A DNA stretch of 64,000 nucleotides, taken from Desulforamulus ruminis DSM 2154 (GTDB taxonomy: Bacteria; Bacillota; Desulfotomaculia; Desulfotomaculales; Desulfotomaculaceae). Location: contig NC_015589.1 in NCBI RefSeq assembly GCF_000215085.1, positions 3,484,120 to 3,548,119 on the forward strand, given 5' to 3'. The notes under the pieces were generated by a model. The model ran no database searches. It saw only the letters and a program-made list of their open reading frames with translations, and was not told the origin of the DNA. Made by a program: the position numbers and the translations under genes. Below, piece after piece: positions 52,173 through 60,818 of this stretch (positions within the stretch are counted from its first letter, which is position 1; each line of letters starts with the position of its first letter).

Positions 52173-52493
52173 TTATCTCAGGGTAATCTTCTGCGGTTTT
52201 TCGTCCTTCCACTCCAGTCCTTTAATTTTTCCCAGTTCCCAGGCCGCCACAGCATAACCTCCCAGGGTTAAACCCGTCGGCACCGCCTCCCGCCAAGGCA
52301 TTTGCAGGAACAGGAAAGCTGCAGCCAGCCCCCAGACCAAAGCTAAAAGAGGCGCCACACCCTTAAGACTTGGCAGCAACCGATAAGTAACCCAAACTAA
52401 AATCAGAATAACCGGTACAAAAGGAATTGCTTTAGCAGGCACAAATACCTGCAGCAGTCCGCCAAAATTCTCAAAAATAACACTAATATCCAT
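52173..52493 (-). CDS. Putative holin
   Basis: A 106-aa hydrophobic protein with three membrane helices (IPFVPVILILVWVTYRLL, VAPLLALVWGLAAAFLFL, LTLGGYAVAAWELG) and a charged C-terminus, typical of phage holins. Its ATG overlaps the stop of the amidase gene (TAATG). Last gene of the lysis module. Holin families vary strongly, so the call rests on context. Confidence 0.75.
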   Translation of the reverse strand: MDISVIFENFGGLLQVFVPAKAIPFVPVILILVWVTYRLLPSLKGVAPLLALVWGLAAAFLFLQMPWREAVPTGLTLGGYAVAAWELGKIKGLEWKDEKPQKITLR

Positions 52494-53071
52494 TATGCTT
52501 CTCCTTCCAATGACAGAGTCACCATCAACCCGTAAGCAATTTCATTGGCTAAGCCGTCTAAAAAATCATGGTTTTTCAGCAATTGGGCATCGCCAGTATG
52601 ATCCATAAACAGGCATTCCAAAAGAACCGCCGGCATATGGGTCAGGCGAAGAACCGCAAAATCGGCATATTTACACCCGCGATCTTTCACCTTATGCCGG
52701 GCCAGATACTGCATAATCTGACTGTGCAGCCGGTTCCTCAAAGCATCCGCCGGTTTATTTTTAGCAGCCGGGTGAACAAAACTTTCAAAGCCTTCACCGC
52801 CACCGGCGTTCACATGAAGGGATAAATAAAAATCCGCCTTTAGGCGGTTGGCTTCCTGGGGCGGCTTGTATAATTCATCTCGGGCAGTGCTTTTAGGGTT
52901 GCTCAGAGAGGGTTGCACGATGATAATCTCCGCATTCCTTCCGGCTAACTTCTCCTTCACCCTTTGAGCCAGTTCCCAGACAATAAACTTTTCCACCAGC
53001 CCGTTGGCAACCGCTCCGGGGTCCTGGCCCCCATGCCCCGGGTCCAGAACAATGATTTTTTTATTCTTCAC
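52493..53071 (-). CDS. Phage N-acetylmuramoyl-L-alanine amidase (amidase 3)
   Basis: A 192-aa Zn-dependent endolysin. Zn-site motifs: VLDPGHGGQDPGAV, VEKFIVWELAQRV with the second ligand Glu nearby, SLHVNAGGGEGFESFVH, and the catalytic Glu in PAVLLECLFMDHTGDAQLL. There is no cell-wall-binding domain. The GTG at 53071 follows GGAGAGG; an earlier in-frame start is unlikely. It lies between the XhlA-like gene and the holin. Confidence 0.9.
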   Translation of the reverse strand: MKNKKIIVLDPGHGGQDPGAVANGLVEKFIVWELAQRVKEKLAGRNAEIIIVQPSLSNPKSTARDELYKPPQEANRLKADFYLSLHVNAGGGEGFESFVHPAAKNKPADALRNRLHSQIMQYLARHKVKDRGCKYADFAVLRLTHMPAVLLECLFMDHTGDAQLLKNHDFLDGLANEIAYGLMVTLSLEGEA

Positions 53072-53085
53072 CCCAACCTCTCCTT

Positions 53086-53403
53086 TTACTGTGGCCAATA
53101 TTTCAGCACCAGCCCAATGCCCACGCCGATACCGCCCCATTTGGCCAATTGCAGCATCAGGGTGGTGATTTTATCATCCTGTTTCTCATTCCGGGACTCC
53201 TGCCTGCTGCAACACTTCTCCCGGTACCGCTCGCACTCCTGACGGTTCACGGCGTCCCGCTGGTGGTCCAGGCGCTCATAGATCTGTTTAATTTCCTCCC
53301 GGGTCTCTTCCCGCTGCTTGGTCAGAGCCACCTCAATCTTCTCTAACCATTTCACCACATTACTCAGTTCATTTTTCAATACGTTGATATCCTCCGGCGG
53401 CAC
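53086..53403 (-). CDS. XhlA-like haemolysin/holin-associated protein
   Basis: A 105-aa protein: a long coiled coil (about 10-75; NELSNVVKWLEKIEVALTKQREETREEIKQIYERLDH) with Cys residues (QECERYREKCCSRQ) and one C-terminal membrane helix (LAKWGGIGVGIGLVLKYW). This is the XhlA layout of PBSX, which works with the holin in lysis. The GTG at 53403 follows GGGGGTGG; a start at 53427 lacks a site. Confidence 0.8.
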   Translation of the reverse strand: MPPEDINVLKNELSNVVKWLEKIEVALTKQREETREEIKQIYERLDHQRDAVNRQECERYREKCCSRQESRNEKQDDKITTLMLQLAKWGGIGVGIGLVLKYWPQ

Positions 53404-53522
53404 AAGCCCACCCCCTATGTCATTCACTTGCTAGTAATCAATACCGGTACTGCATCTCTAAATTGTTAATGATGGGCTGCCCCGTTATCCGTTAAATGAA
53501 TCTTGCCCGTTGTCTCAACAGT

Positions 53523-53846
53523 CTAACGGCTCTTTCCGGCGTTCAAAAAATTCAGCAGCTTCCGAATACCATTCTTCGTCCGCCCTCTTTGCATCTGCTT
53601 TATCATTTCTTCCTGCTCCATAATCCGCCTCTGCCGGTCCTGTTCCCTCAGGAAATCAATGAACTGCATGTACTCCTCCGGACTGATTTCCTGTAACTCC
53701 GCATGATCCGGCAGTTCCACCTGATCCTCCAGCGGAAAAACCACCTCGGATTCCCCTTCATAGCCGATAACAAAATGGACCGGCAGATTACCATACTGCA
53801 CGGTCCCGTCTTCCCTCACCTGCTTTTGTGTTTTAAAATACCGCAT
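53523..53846 (-). CDS. Phage tail-region hypothetical protein
   Basis: A 107-aa protein, beta-rich at first (TQKQVREDGTVQYGNLPVHFVIGYEGESEVVFPLED) and then a charged helix. Many Firmicute prophages have such a gene between fibre and lysis genes. GGAGGGGAAGC precedes the ATG. Function unknown. Confidence 0.7.
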   Translation of the reverse strand: MRYFKTQKQVREDGTVQYGNLPVHFVIGYEGESEVVFPLEDQVELPDHAELQEISPEEYMQFIDFLREQDRQRRIMEQEEMIKQMQRGRTKNGIRKLLNFLNAGKSR

Positions 53847-53856
53847 GCTTCCCCTC

Positions 53857-55929
53857 CTATTCCACCTGATTAAGAATACCGCTTAAAGACAGCGGTCCGC
53901 TGTACCCGCCGGGCTTCAGATCATTCAGGCAGCCAAAATCCGTCCCCGGATACCCCAAGGCCGCCAGCACTTCCCGCACCCCTTTCTGGGACAGCGCAGC
54001 CGAACTGGAGCCGGAAGCCTTGTTTCTTAAAGTAAAGGTCCGAACCGCTTGACCGCCCTTGTTGTCCTTTACCAATACCTGGCAGACATTATTGCCCAGC
54101 AGCAAACCCGCAAAAGTATACTCAAAGGCCGTCCCGCCGGTACAAGCGGTCCAGTCCACCTTAGTAACCTCGCCCTGGATCATCTTATACTGCAGCGTGT
54201 CCCCCGTATCTGCATCACCGGGAGTGACACGCAGGGTAAAACGATCCTCGGCAACCGATACCGCCTGTCCTTCAGCCAGAGTTTGATTGGCGGCAGGAGA
54301 GAAAAGCACCATAAAGGGTGCTTTGTTTACTGTGAAATTCACCGTCTGCTGCGCCTGGTTCCCGGCCTTGTCCACCGCCGTCACCACAAGGGTCTTGCTC
54401 CCCCCGGAAGTAATGGTAGTCCCGGATGTGTAAGCCAAACCGTTCAGCGTCGCCGTTACCGAGGCCAATCCCGATCCCCCCGCATCCGTAGCGGAAAAAG
54501 TAGGCGACACTGAATTCTGATAAGTCTGCCCGTTTGCCACCCCGGAAAGGCTAATCACCGGGACAGTGCGGTCCACCGTCAATGTATAGCCCATGGTGGT
54601 CGTAGCGACGCCCCCGTTGCCGTCATCCGCAGTGACCACAATATTGCTGTAGCTTCCCTGTGAAATATTATCAGCGGCCACATCCCAGGTTAAAGACCAG
54701 CTTTTTTCTGTGGAAGTGCCGCTGATAACCGTACCTTTTGTTTTTCCGCCAATGGTTGCGCTGACCGTAACGTTGTCATTGTCTACGTCACTGACCGTGC
54801 CGGAAAGAGTAATGATTTTTCTTTCGTAGACGGTAGAGAAGGATTGATTGGTGGTTGGGAAGGTTAATATCATTTGAGGCATGCTATTTAGTTGAGTCAT
54901 AGCACTAGTAAAATAAACGTAATTATCGCGTTCACTACCAACTGTCGGTCTATTACTATTGAAAGCTGAAAAATCGGTAAAGCCTGATACTAAGGTCTTA
55001 GCTCCTGTATTAACGTCAACGTCGTAGGCCTTCCATGTATTATTATTGTCATTTGTTATAACCCGAAGTTTTCCATTACCTATATATGACATTGTACTTG
55101 TAAAGTAAACATACGAATCACGTTCACTACCAACTGTCGGTCTATTACTATTAAAAGCTGAGAAATCGGTAAAGCCTGATACTAAGGTCTTAGCTCCTGT
55201 ATTAACGTCAACGTCGTAGGCCTTCCATGTATTATTATTGTCATTTGTTATAACTCGAAGTTTTCCATTACCTATATATGACATTGTACTTGTAAAGTAA
55301 ACATACGAATCACGTTCACTACCAACTGTCGGTCTATTACTATTAAAAGCTGAGAAATCGGTAAAGCCTGATACTAAGGTCTTAGCTCCTGTATTAACGT
55401 CAACGTCGTAAGCCTTCCATGTATTATTATTGTCATTTGTTATAACCCGAAGTTTTCCATTACCTATATATGACATTGTACTTGTAAAGTAAACATATTT
55501 ATCAGCTTCACCAAAACCTGTCGGTCTATTACCATTAAAAGCTGAAAAATCGGTAAAGCCTGATACTAAGGTCTTAGCTCCTGTATTAATGTCAACATCA
55601 TAGACTTTCCAAACATTATTTGAATCTAATCCAATTACTCTTAATTTTTCATAAGTTGCCTCTGCAGACTGTAATAAATAGGAGCTTGGTAGACAATGTA
55701 TTTTTTTGATTTTACCTAAAATTACAACATCAAAAATATTAAATTTTGTACTAATATTATTATCCCCAACTAGCTTATCTCCAACCACTCGTTTGACGAC
55801 CGTTTTAGAACCCACCCGGGCAACGACAATATCTCCATCTTGCCAGCGGCGGTCTACGATCTCAATAACATCCCCGTCAGCTAATGTCGGCATCATAGAA
55901 CACCCGGAAACCTGATATAAATGATCCAT
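53857..55929 (-). CDS. Tail-associated fusion protein: S24/S26 peptidase-like domain, four 64-aa repeats and Ig-like domains
   Basis: A 690-aa chimera. Residues 1-80 resemble LexA/signal-peptidase domains: GCSMMPTLADGD with candidate catalytic Ser11, then DIVVARVGSKTVVKRVVGDKLVGDNN with candidate catalytic Lys46. Residues 92-347 are four 64-aa repeats (KLRVITNDNNNTWKAYDVDVNTGAK...YVYFTSTMSYI); repeats 2-4 are nearly identical. Residues about 350-640 are three Ig-like domains (TLTVDRTVPVISLSGVANGQTY is a typical linker). The C-terminus has KGVREVLAALGYPG. No signal peptide or membrane segment. AGGTGATAAT precedes the ATG. It is inside the fibre cassette, so a tail-tip or host-recognition role is inferred; the purpose of a peptidase domain is unknown. 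Confidence 0.8.
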   Translation of the reverse strand: MDHLYQVSGCSMMPTLADGDVIEIVDRRWQDGDIVVARVGSKTVVKRVVGDKLVGDNNISTKFNIFDVVILGKIKKIHCLPSSYLLQSAEATYEKLRVIGLDSNNVWKVYDVDINTGAKTLVSGFTDFSAFNGNRPTGFGEADKYVYFTSTMSYIGNGKLRVITNDNNNTWKAYDVDVNTGAKTLVSGFTDFSAFNSNRPTVGSERDSYVYFTSTMSYIGNGKLRVITNDNNNTWKAYDVDVNTGAKTLVSGFTDFSAFNSNRPTVGSERDSYVYFTSTMSYIGNGKLRVITNDNNNTWKAYDVDVNTGAKTLVSGFTDFSAFNSNRPTVGSERDNYVYFTSAMTQLNSMPQMILTFPTTNQSFSTVYERKIITLSGTVSDVDNDNVTVSATIGGKTKGTVISGTSTEKSWSLTWDVAADNISQGSYSNIVVTADDGNGGVATTTMGYTLTVDRTVPVISLSGVANGQTYQNSVSPTFSATDAGGSGLASVTATLNGLAYTSGTTITSGGSKTLVVTAVDKAGNQAQQTVNFTVNKAPFMVLFSPAANQTLAEGQAVSVAEDRFTLRVTPGDADTGDTLQYKMIQGEVTKVDWTACTGGTAFEYTFAGLLLGNNVCQVLVKDNKGGQAVRTFTLRNKASGSSSAALSQKGVREVLAALGYPGTDFGCLNDLKPGGYSGPLSLSGILNQVE
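54889..55656 (-). repeat. Four tandem 192-bp coding repeats
   Basis: Four in-frame copies of a 192-bp unit encode 64-aa repeats. Units 2-4 are almost identical in DNA as well as protein. Unit 1 (55465-55656) has diverged (LDSNNVWKVYDVDIN). The near identity suggests recent expansion by slippage or recombination. Confidence 0.92.
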
Positions 55930-55937
55930 ATTATCAC

Positions 55938-56300
55938 CTACCAGAACACAACATATTTAAACGATGTGGTTGCCGTCCCCGAACATTTCACGGAAAAACT
56001 ATTGGCCCCCTGCTCCACCCAAACCTCGCCCAAATATCCGGCAGGGTTTGCAACCGGAGTTACCTCTACATAATAATTGGCATCTCCCTTTGTATGAGCT
56101 ATCACCGTTCCAACCGCACCGTTAAAATTGGCGTTTCCCGCTAATCTAGGATGTATAACCTGTGCCATATGTGTGGTAAAATCGGTTTTTTTAGCAGCAT
56201 TTTGGTCTATGAGTTCCAGATTTTCAACATATGCCTGTCTGCTGACAAATTCATTCCCCAGTGGTTTATTCAGCCCCAAATTAGGTGTAACGTTAGGCAT
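55938..56300 (-). CDS. Phage tail fibre-like protein
   Basis: A 120-aa protein. The first 45 residues (NLGLNKPLGNEFVSRQAYVENLELIDQNAAKKTDF) are paralogous to the protein at 58670-58912 and act as a common attachment end in Firmicute tail fibres. The rest is a beta domain (TKGDANYYVEVTPVANPAGYLGEVWVEQGANSFSVKCSG) with an aromatic C-terminus. GGGAGGTGGCTG precedes the ATG. The 277 bases up to 56577 are AT-rich and empty. Confidence 0.75.
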   Translation of the reverse strand: MPNVTPNLGLNKPLGNEFVSRQAYVENLELIDQNAAKKTDFTTHMAQVIHPRLAGNANFNGAVGTVIAHTKGDANYYVEVTPVANPAGYLGEVWVEQGANSFSVKCSGTATTSFKYVVFW

Positions 56301-56577
56301 TCAGCCACCTCCCTATTCCCATTCAAACTAAACCTTTAATCTTATAGAAAACAACTCTCAATAATTATTGAAAAGCAGGAGTTAGATTGACAATTACTTG
56401 TACTATATTCATATTTTAAGTGTATAAAATAATATTTGCTCTTGAGATTATTAAATTTTTGTGTAATTCAAATTATATTCTCATGCACCTCAATATTTAT
56501 CTAATAATTACACAGCAATTATTTTCTTCACTTTCAATAAAACAAACCAAAACTGAATCCAATAACGTCAACTCCTT

Positions 56578-59121: not shown

Positions 59122-59709
59122 TTAATCCGCTAACCAACCCCCGGTTTCAAATTCATCCCAGGTTAAATTCCTGGCGTCCAACTGGTCCCAGGTTAAGTTT
59201 TTGGCATCCAGTTCATCCCAAATCAGGTATCTGAATTCATATTTAATGGTTAAATGGGCCGGTTTAATTTCTTCCAGGGCTGACTTCAAATCCTCAATAT
59301 TGGGCGGTATGCCCCGGGTGTCGATAAATTTTACCGTGAACTGGTAAAGGGAAGGTTGTTCCGTCACCTCTACCGTGCCGCCGTCGTAGGACTCGGCAAC
59401 GTTCTTGATGAGGCTGATGGTTACCGTCCCAATGCCGCGAATCCGGGATTTTATAACCGACCTGCGCTGGTCGTTCGGCTTGCCCGCCGTGGACATAATA
59501 TTTAATTCCTGCTCCCAGCGGTCCAGTCCCCAGGTGGCGGTATTTACAAAAAACTGGTTCAGGACTTCATCCATGGCCTTCCGAAGGCGGTCCAGTTCCA
59601 TGCCTTCGGCCTCCAGCAGGCTTCTTGTCATCCTGGAAGTTTCGTAAAAACGGGGCAGGTAGGTTAACATCTCCTGCCCCCGAACACTGTTGATGGGGTA
59701 AACGTTCAT
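59122..59709 (-). CDS. Baseplate protein XkdU/YmfQ-like (DUF2313)
   Basis: A 195-aa baseplate component encoded after the J protein. Typical start (LTYLPRFYETSRMTRSLLEAEGMELDRLRKAMDEVLNQFFVNTATWGLDRWEQEL) and GKPNDQRRSVIKSRIRG. The C-terminus carries three copies of a short WD[EQ] motif (IWDELDAKNL, TWDQLDARNL, TWDEFETGG). Its ATG overlaps the stop of the J-like gene by four bases. Confidence 0.88.
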   Translation of the reverse strand: MNVYPINSVRGQEMLTYLPRFYETSRMTRSLLEAEGMELDRLRKAMDEVLNQFFVNTATWGLDRWEQELNIMSTAGKPNDQRRSVIKSRIRGIGTVTISLIKNVAESYDGGTVEVTEQPSLYQFTVKFIDTRGIPPNIEDLKSALEEIKPAHLTIKYEFRYLIWDELDAKNLTWDQLDARNLTWDEFETGGWLAD

Positions 59710-60818
59710 GCCAGCGTCACCGTCCCTTTTACAGCCACCTGGCCTTGATCGATTGCCACATTGGCGGTTCCCTCGTTCACCGTCATGCCGGTATAATCCT
59801 GAACCCCTTCGGTGTCCAGCAGCAGGGATCCGATTCGTACATAACGGGCCGTGGGATCCGCCGCAAAAGCAATGCTTCCGAGGTATTCATCCAAAGACTT
59901 CTCAAAGGAAGCCTGCACCTCCGCCAGGGTTTTGGCACCCGTAAGGATGACGGTGGCGGATACATGCACATCGACGGGTTCTGCAGAAACCACGGTTACT
60001 TTTGCCCCAATAGGAGCTTTGCCTTCGCCCCCTCCCGGTGAGGGTGATATATAATCCTGCACTTTGCTGACAATTGGTTCCACGGCAGGCTTTTTATCGG
60101 TACCCAGCAGTACCACCTTCACCGTTCCCGCCCCGTCCGCCAGGGGAAGGACCTGTACTCCGCCAACCCCCGGCACTTCCAGTGCCCAGTTGACATAATC
60201 GGCTTTGTTGCCGCTGGTGCCCGGCGTACGGACTTTGGCGTAGAACCGGGATAACAGGGTGGCGTCATCCTCCTCATCGGCCCCGCCGGTCAGGGCCTGG
60301 TTATTCAGTACCGCCGAGATACCACCCACCGGCGTAATCATGATGTTAATGGTTCCCGCACCTACGTTGCCGTCCTTTCCGGCCTGCACGGCTTCAAGAT
60401 CGGCATACCCGACGCCGGTTGAGTCAATAACCTCTTCGGAAACGGTGATAAACTCCGTAGAAGGGTTATTGGTGGCCGGATCGGCCGGCGTGGCCACCAC
60501 GGTTCCGGCAGGGACGACGGTGCCCGCCGTTCCGTTAAATTTGATTTGCCCGGTGGCCTTTACCGCCTGCCGCCGGGTAATGCCGTGTTCGTCGCAGCGC
60601 AAATCCAGGTAGGGCCCAAAGGTGGTGCCCGCAAAGCCCCTTTGCAAAACCTCCTGTCCCCAGAGAGCAGCCAGGGCCAGCTCGATGGCGGCCGGCGACA
60701 GGGCGTCCCAAATAAAGCTTCCCTCGGATTTATCCATATCCGCAGGTACGTTTTCCAGCATGCGCTGCCGGATGGCGTCTAGGGTTTGATCGTTTAAATA
60801 ATCCGGTAATGTTGTCAC
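59706..60818 (-). CDS. Baseplate J-like protein (XkdT)
   Basis: A 370-aa baseplate wedge protein, homologous to P2 gpJ and T4 gp6. It shows LDLRCDEHGITRRQAVKATGQIKFNGTAGTVVPAGTVVATPA and GGADEEDDATLLSRFYAKVRTPGTSGNKADYVNWALEVPGVGGVQVLPL, both diagnostic. GTG start after GGAGGTGAAAAT; it overlaps the preceding stop (GTGA). Confidence 0.93.
   Translation of the reverse strand: MTTLPDYLNDQTLDAIRQRMLENVPADMDKSEGSFIWDALSPAAIELALAALWGQEVLQRGFAGTTFGPYLDLRCDEHGITRRQAVKATGQIKFNGTAGTVVPAGTVVATPADPATNNPSTEFITVSEEVIDSTGVGYADLEAVQAGKDGNVGAGTINIMITPVGGISAVLNNQALTGGADEEDDATLLSRFYAKVRTPGTSGNKADYVNWALEVPGVGGVQVLPLADGAGTVKVVLLGTDKKPAVEPIVSKVQDYISPSPGGGEGKAPIGAKVTVVSAEPVDVHVSATVILTGAKTLAEVQASFEKSLDEYLGSIAFAADPTARYVRIGSLLLDTEGVQDYTGMTVNEGTANVAIDQGQVAVKGTVTLA

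Follow-up and report, generated by a model that had tools for sequence, protein, structure and literature searches.

The fusion gene and its contractile-tail cluster

The window, a stretch of 64,000 nucleotides from Desulforamulus ruminis DSM 2154, carries on its minus strand an open reading frame that runs from an ATG at 55929 to a stop codon at 53857 and encodes a protein of 690 amino acids. The first-pass annotation had located this gene correctly at 53857-55929 and had described it as a peptidase-like domain joined to repeats and Ig domains. The fusion gene is present in a single copy in the D. ruminis genome (one contig, 3,969,014 bp), and its Shine-Dalgarno sequence, TAGGTGATAATATG, is a good match that overlaps the stop codon of the 120-aa gene upstream. 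From its N-terminus, the product comprises:

55699..55929, minus strand: predicted signal-peptidase-like Ser/Lys domain, residues 1-77 (about), from Pfam S24/S26 matches above cut-off, alignment to LexA and signal peptidase (SPase) structures, and core elements as in PMC12984324
55897..55899, minus strand: Ser11, predicted nucleophile, in GCSMMP; aligns with the catalytic Ser of LexA and SPase and is invariant in five tail copies, the Ser codon having been part of the DNA search pattern that found two of the five
55792..55794, minus strand: Lys46, predicted general base, in VVKR (VKRV); aligns with the catalytic Lys and does not vary across the five tail copies or the two from Rossellomorea
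55759..55767, minus strand: GDN, residues 55-57, signal-peptidase-type Omega motif, from comparison with the PMC12984324 core list and a five-copy alignment
55657..55665, minus strand: AEA, residues 89-91, at the domain junction, a candidate processing site kept in the three Desulforamulus-group copies only
54904..55611, minus strand: 192-bp tandem array encoding 64-aa repeats, about residues 107-342, from a repeat search
54010..54880, minus strand: Ig-like region, residues about 350-640, with Big_3_3 and OmpL47-type Ig matches
53857..54009, minus strand: C-terminal segment, residues 641-690, conserved (L361 similarity) and predicted helical, with helices in a low-confidence AlphaFold model

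The tandem array (3.7 copies of the 192-bp unit, 94%) reads as four 64-aa repeats, and profile searches place the Ig-like matches at residues 411-465 and 471-534; both bear out the proposed fusion to extracellular-type repeats and Ig domains. Matches of the repeats to PSI_PsaF and similar Pfam families were set aside, as no single stretch passes alone. The Ig-like region is homologous to a region of the protein on viral-type contig L361, and one homologous Ig domain occurs in a Rossellomorea protein (see below). The fusion protein has no match among tail-fibre family profiles, and its assignment as a fibre or adhesin comes from its Ig domains and position. AlphaFold models built on alignments of 3-4 sequences had mean pLDDT values of 38 and 50, with the peptidase domain below 50 and its active site unreadable; Foldseek comparisons of these poor models were used for the 'Ig-like' label only. 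Orthologues with the same fusion in two other genomes rule out an assembly or frame artefact.

The genes surrounding the fusion gene are those of a phage tail and a lysis cassette:

52173..52493, minus strand: holin (phrog_1299 holin, 7e-5)
52493..53140, minus strand: N-acetylmuramoyl-L-alanine amidase (Amidase_3, 6e-37)
53086..53427, minus strand: 113-aa gene in the XhlA position, so placed by position and with no profile support
53523..53846, minus strand: 107-aa gene directly downstream of the fusion gene, found among 113 genomes only in the three with the fusion
55938..56300, minus strand: 120-aa mini-fibre gene just upstream of the fusion gene, 80-82% identical in two orthologous clusters and with 46% identity to its positional counterpart in L361
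57657..58652, minus strand: tail fibre with an Mtd_N domain (Mtd_N, 1.3e-12; phrog_7389 tail fiber, 9e-35)
59122..59709, minus strand: Mu gp48/XkdU-like baseplate protein (Phage_Mu_Gp48, 1e-38)
59706..60818, minus strand: baseplate J/XkdT-like protein (Baseplate_J, 2.6e-68)

The N-terminus of the mini-fibre is an attachment-type module common to many long fibre-like ORFs. Upstream of its gene lies a gap of about 280 bp (56301-56577; 26% GC) that is present but poorly sequence-conserved in the orthologous clusters; this AT-rich segment is possibly a separate promoter.

Read from the holin (52173), the cluster proceeds through the amidase, the fusion cassette and variable fibres to XkdU, XkdT, XkdS, XkdR and XkdQ, the last three of which, lacking profile matches, are named from gene order. 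Beyond XkdQ follow a LysM protein, a short (500 aa) tape measure, tube, sheath, a regulator and a divergent HTH+S24 repressor, which lies past the window end at 69644-70306 in window numbering (L178:13764-14426); outward of the repressor are an IS-type transposase and then host genes. Inspection, together with profiles of the main genes, recognised no terminase, portal, capsid or integrase between the repressor and the host genes, and likewise no head or integration genes were recognised on the upstream side of the Desulforamulus aeronauticus cluster. Because no head, packaging or integration genes were seen, we classify the cluster, known here from its genes, as a predicted headless contractile tail of the tailocin (PBSX-like) type rather than a complete prophage; the 'phage fibre cassette' of the first-pass annotation thus holds as a tail gene cluster and fails as a complete prophage. 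The gene content matches tailocins of the PBSX and diffocin kind, with which the cluster shares the order sheath, tube, tape measure, LysM protein, XkdQ-U, fibres and lysis genes, as well as the lack of a head. We know of no peptidase-domain adhesin in clusters of the PBSX/diffocin type.

Two more contractile-tail-type clusters in the D. ruminis genome (G000:C1:1758000-1777000 and 1340000-1358000; L193, L194) are without the fusion, and a same-genus genome (L191; G002:C62) has a related tail cluster in which the baseplate region is broken and partly duplicated, with no peptidase fusion. In the HTH+S24 repressor of the D. ruminis cluster, Ala occupies the nucleophile position (TDNAMSD), whereas the D. 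aeronauticus orthologue has Ser there (NNSMSD), the Lys being kept; judged by this substitution, the D. ruminis repressor may be unable to self-cleave.

Family assignment of the N-terminal domain

The whole protein exceeds the cut-offs of both Pfam families of the superfamily, scoring 27.2 bits against Peptidase_S24 (PF00717; cut-off 23.3) and 23.4 bits against Peptidase_S26 (PF10502; cut-off 22.9). The isolated domain scores higher (31.3 and 27.7 bits, respectively), with the Pfam match spanning residues 4-50, and PF00717 is also matched by the copies in L361, L366/L451 and Rossellomorea. These searches substantiate the S24/S26-superfamily domain proposed for the N-terminus. Against structures of LexA and signal peptidase, a profile built from the three orthologues gives matches in which Ser11 and Lys46 fall on the catalytic residues of both, just as had been suggested from GCSMMP and VKRV.

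Within 76 residues, the domain contains the complete catalytic core listed for the superfamily (PMC12984324): the nucleophile peptide, VIEI, IVVA, VVKR, LV, GDN and GKIKK. According to that 2026 study, the Omega segment splits signal peptidases (GDN type) from LexA proteins (Pro/aromatic type). All five tail copies are of the GDN type and lack the proline and aromatic residue of the LexA family in this motif. The Omega pattern GDNxxxS(xD) is found in relatives as GDNTEVS, GDNIKVS and GDNRALSAD; the window copy, GDNNIS, is one residue shorter, and GDNRALSAD, from the L366 tail copy, is close to the GDNRDNSAD of E. coli SPase. In a 36-sequence tree, a short alignment whose bootstrap is not settled, the tail and Rossellomorea domains group with signal peptidases, and a 100/98 branch separates them from repressors and LexA.

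Because of the GDN Omega motif and the tree placement, we assign the domain to the signal-peptidase rather than the LexA type. The likeness to type I signal peptidases (MEROPS S26; TIGR02227, PF10502) extends to the GxSMxPTL nucleophile peptide, the VKR base strand, the GDN motif and the nearest tree branch, and for each of the three Desulforamulus-group copies the top NCBIfam match is TIGR02227. Unlike these enzymes, the window domain misses the TIGR02227 equivalog cut-off (27.7 vs 47 bits), is without a transmembrane anchor (no strongly hydrophobic 19-residue stretch at the N-terminus; maximum about 1.1) and the large box D-E insertion, and is fused to repeats and Ig domains. By these features it is a predicted minimal soluble signal-peptidase-like (S26) domain and not a type I signal peptidase proper.

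With the LexA/UmuD/CI autoproteases (MEROPS S24, PF00717), the domain shares the superfamily, a Ser/Lys spacing of 35 and a score above the Pfam S24 cut-off, whereas it differs in its tree placement, in the GDN that replaces the Pro/aromatic Omega motif, and in having neither an upstream cleavage-site region nor a DNA-binding domain. Of the LexA/UmuD/signal-peptidase character first ascribed to it, the superfamily and the signal-peptidase likeness therefore stand, and the LexA likeness is ruled out by the Omega motif and the tree. LexA-style cis cleavage upstream of the domain is likewise impossible, since the domain starts at Met1 and nothing precedes it. An origin from the S24 domain of the cluster's own repressor was also considered and rejected, no similarity between the two being detectable.

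Recurrence of the fusion in tail clusters and secreted proteins

The fusion occurs in three of ten genomes of the family: those of D. ruminis, D. aeronauticus DSM 10349 and a Desulfotomaculum MAG. The neighbours are identical in the orthologous loci, with the 120-aa gene upstream and the 107-aa gene, a small gene, the amidase and the holin downstream. In the MAG, an unrelated stretch replaces the middle repeats, with the N-terminal domain and Ig/C-terminal part retained on either side, which on alignment is the usual picture of module exchange; the D. aeronauticus orthologue is split at the repeats by an assembly break, and both halves are present on two contigs.

Most of the wider surveys yielded nothing but repressors, LexA and signal peptidases, encoded in frames of about 100-335 aa, and MPSQIPLGISMTPTF matches in L258, L260, L279, L284 and L286 proved to be chance motifs inside unrelated large proteins. 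When the search used a DNA pattern built around the GGTG ribosome-binding site, it recovered the D. ruminis and D. aeronauticus contigs as positive controls and revealed relatives that the early surveys had missed, with at least two new lineages (L361 and L366) among the matches listed. The L361 protein (547 aa) is 48% identical to the window protein in the domain and 39% identical over residues 529-687. Because its gene, too, is preceded by a mini-fibre gene (46% identical), the two-gene cassette of mini-fibre and fusion is conserved. The L366/L554 protein (601 aa) is 54% identical in the domain, has Ig-type repeats and carries the canonical Omega motif noted above. Both fusions are embedded in baseplate and fibre genes, and what comes directly after them is a second baseplate/fibre set rather than lysis genes; no head genes were seen on either viral-type contig.

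A search of 50,697 phage records gave no match beyond weak matches to repressors, and the plasmid records held one strong match, in Rossellomorea sp. AcN35-11. There, WJV32323 and WJV32324 are tandem giant secreted proteins of 1833 and 1846 aa, annotated as S24 family peptidase, in which the peptidase domain begins about two residues after an apparent Sec signal peptide. Their domain is 46% identical to that of the window protein, and one Ig domain is homologous to the window Ig; among the matches listed, sequence comparison makes these two proteins the closest non-tail relatives. They share with the window protein the same domain at the mature N-terminus, but differ from it in the signal peptide, in their RCC1 repeats, in having GEN and GAN in place of GDN (the Lys is kept in both), and in their neighbourhood, where they close a run of type IV pilus-type genes (PilT, GspE, GspF and prepilins). 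Their locus (L531:6255-17421; CP128836.1) is on a 628-kb megaplasmid that also has a flagellar gene set.

The orthologues, the other tail clusters and the Rossellomorea match rule out a fusion unique to the D. ruminis genome. The survey proposed at the outset thus yields two orthologues, two unrelated viral-type tail clusters and the Rossellomorea secreted proteins, and the literature searched contains no described counterpart, in keeping with the first reading. From this distribution, the domain would be a recurring N-terminal module of tail adhesins and, probably, of pilus adhesins as well.

Elsewhere in the order, the mini-fibre homologue precedes proteins of at least about 360 aa (L339:2130-3228, L341:2097-3204, L343:2101-3204, L344:2148-3228; phrog_2889 for one; Rcc01698_C-like), which look like a conserved receptor-binding family. 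A further viral-type contig, L481 (IMGVR_UViG_3300044799_000914), encodes a roughly 285-aa archaeal-type signal-peptidase-like protein with His for Lys and a hydrophobic segment.

Possible roles of the domain in adhesin assembly

Lys46 and the GDN motif, both outside the search patterns used to find relatives, are invariant in the five tail copies, which fall to about 40-46% identity with the window copy. With 15 of 69 columns outside the motif invariant, the hypergeometric p for invariance of the Lys, Gly, Asp and Asn is about 0.0016, a rough value, the sequences being related. Ratios of pN/pS are 0.15-0.21 for residues 1-56, 0.46-0.78 for residues 57-91 and 0.18-0.25 for the Ig and C-terminal parts, such that residues 1-56 form one of the protein's most tightly constrained regions and the second half of the domain is weakly constrained. 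The invariant base and GDN favour a working active site.

We tentatively propose, at slightly less than an even chance, that the protein is a tailocin adhesin whose active signal-peptidase-type N-terminal domain performs one processing or attachment step in assembly. The fusion protein would be a receptor-binding or tip component of the headless contractile tail, made with the mini-fibre from coupled genes; its N-terminal domain would encounter a second chain, be it the mini-fibre, a baseplate protein or an adjacent copy of itself, and a single Ser/Lys-catalysed step, either a cut or an acyl transfer, would mature or fix the adhesin. The same front-end would serve the giant secreted proteins beside the type IV pilus cluster. 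In support of a role in assembly, the domain opens the tail proteins at residue 1 and, in Rossellomorea, comes just after the signal peptide, and the baseplate, fibre and mini-fibre genes upstream of the fusion gene support a role in the tail. Active processing is disfavoured by the absence of the junction AxA outside Desulforamulus, by the weak constraint on residues 57-91 and by the GEN and GAN of Rossellomorea.

A close rival, somewhat less probable but a serious one, is that the fold has been reused as a docking domain without catalytic function, one that would bind a partner peptide and tether the adhesin to the baseplate or pilus. The precedent is SipA of Streptococcus pyogenes, a signal-peptidase fold that works in the assembly of a surface filament, lacks peptidase activity although its peptide-binding cleft is retained, and is indispensable to pilus polymerisation (PMC4049620). 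The domain's location at the mature N-terminus of both tail and secreted adhesins, and the altered GDN of the Rossellomorea copies, would suit such a role. SipA, however, is a separate protein that has lost the Ser, Lys and GDN, whereas the window adhesin keeps all three within its own chain, as the tail copies do throughout. Because the Lys and GDN are invariant in the tail copies and are exactly what SipA lost, we prefer an active domain, and these alignments favour a one-time processing or attachment role over pure scaffold reuse.

That the protein is not a fibre at all but a lysis-cassette product, exported during lysis, appears unlikely. The fusion gene occupies the slot of PBSX xepA, before an XhlA-slot gene, amidase and holin, and the xepA product is exported and absent from particles (PMC6834076), which counts against a location on the particle; the 280-bp gap before the mini-fibre gene also means that the cassette may be its own unit. 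Against this, the L361 and L366 fusions lie among baseplate and fibre genes with a second such set next to them, and elsewhere in the order large tail-type proteins come after the mini-fibre.

Slightly less likely still is self-removal, in which the domain would cut its own C-terminal junction at LLxSAEA and be released from the mature adhesin in the manner of a pro-domain. The protein has no AxA other than AEA (residues 89-91), which lies where homology ends, fits signal-peptidase specificity and is kept in three copies, but an AxA is expected by chance in that stretch at about 0.065 (6.5% of composition-preserving shuffles), and we demoted this site once L361 and L366 proved to be without it. 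A regulatory function, in which the domain answers to RecA or targets the cluster's HTH+S24 repressor in trans (with its Ala nucleophile position in D. ruminis) and so ties late tail synthesis to induction, is very improbable, as the domain is of the signal-peptidase type, D. aeronauticus has the fusion together with a Ser-bearing repressor, and the secreted relatives have no way of encountering RecA or a repressor.

If the domain is active, as in the assembly role that we prefer, tail-adhesin assembly would gain a processing or attachment step that is N-terminal and uses Ser/Lys chemistry. The comparable known system is Peptidase S74, the intramolecular chaperone of phage tail fibres (T5 pb1, K1F; PMC4690869), which likewise brings Ser/Lys chemistry to a tail fibre and is self-processing; S74 differs in being a C-terminal trimeric chaperone of another fold, whereas the window domain is N-terminal and unrelated in sequence. 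Activity would also mean that tailocin fibres and Gram-positive surface adhesins are connected by one common module. In its broadest form, a previously undescribed general adhesin front-end that is common to tailocin fibres and the secreted giants of type IV pilus clusters, and whose task in assembly is to process the adhesin or attach it covalently, the proposal is more speculative, though a real possibility. Ser11 offers a simple residue for testing activity, and the presence of the domain accounts for the 'S24 family peptidase' labels on giant surface or tail proteins in databases.
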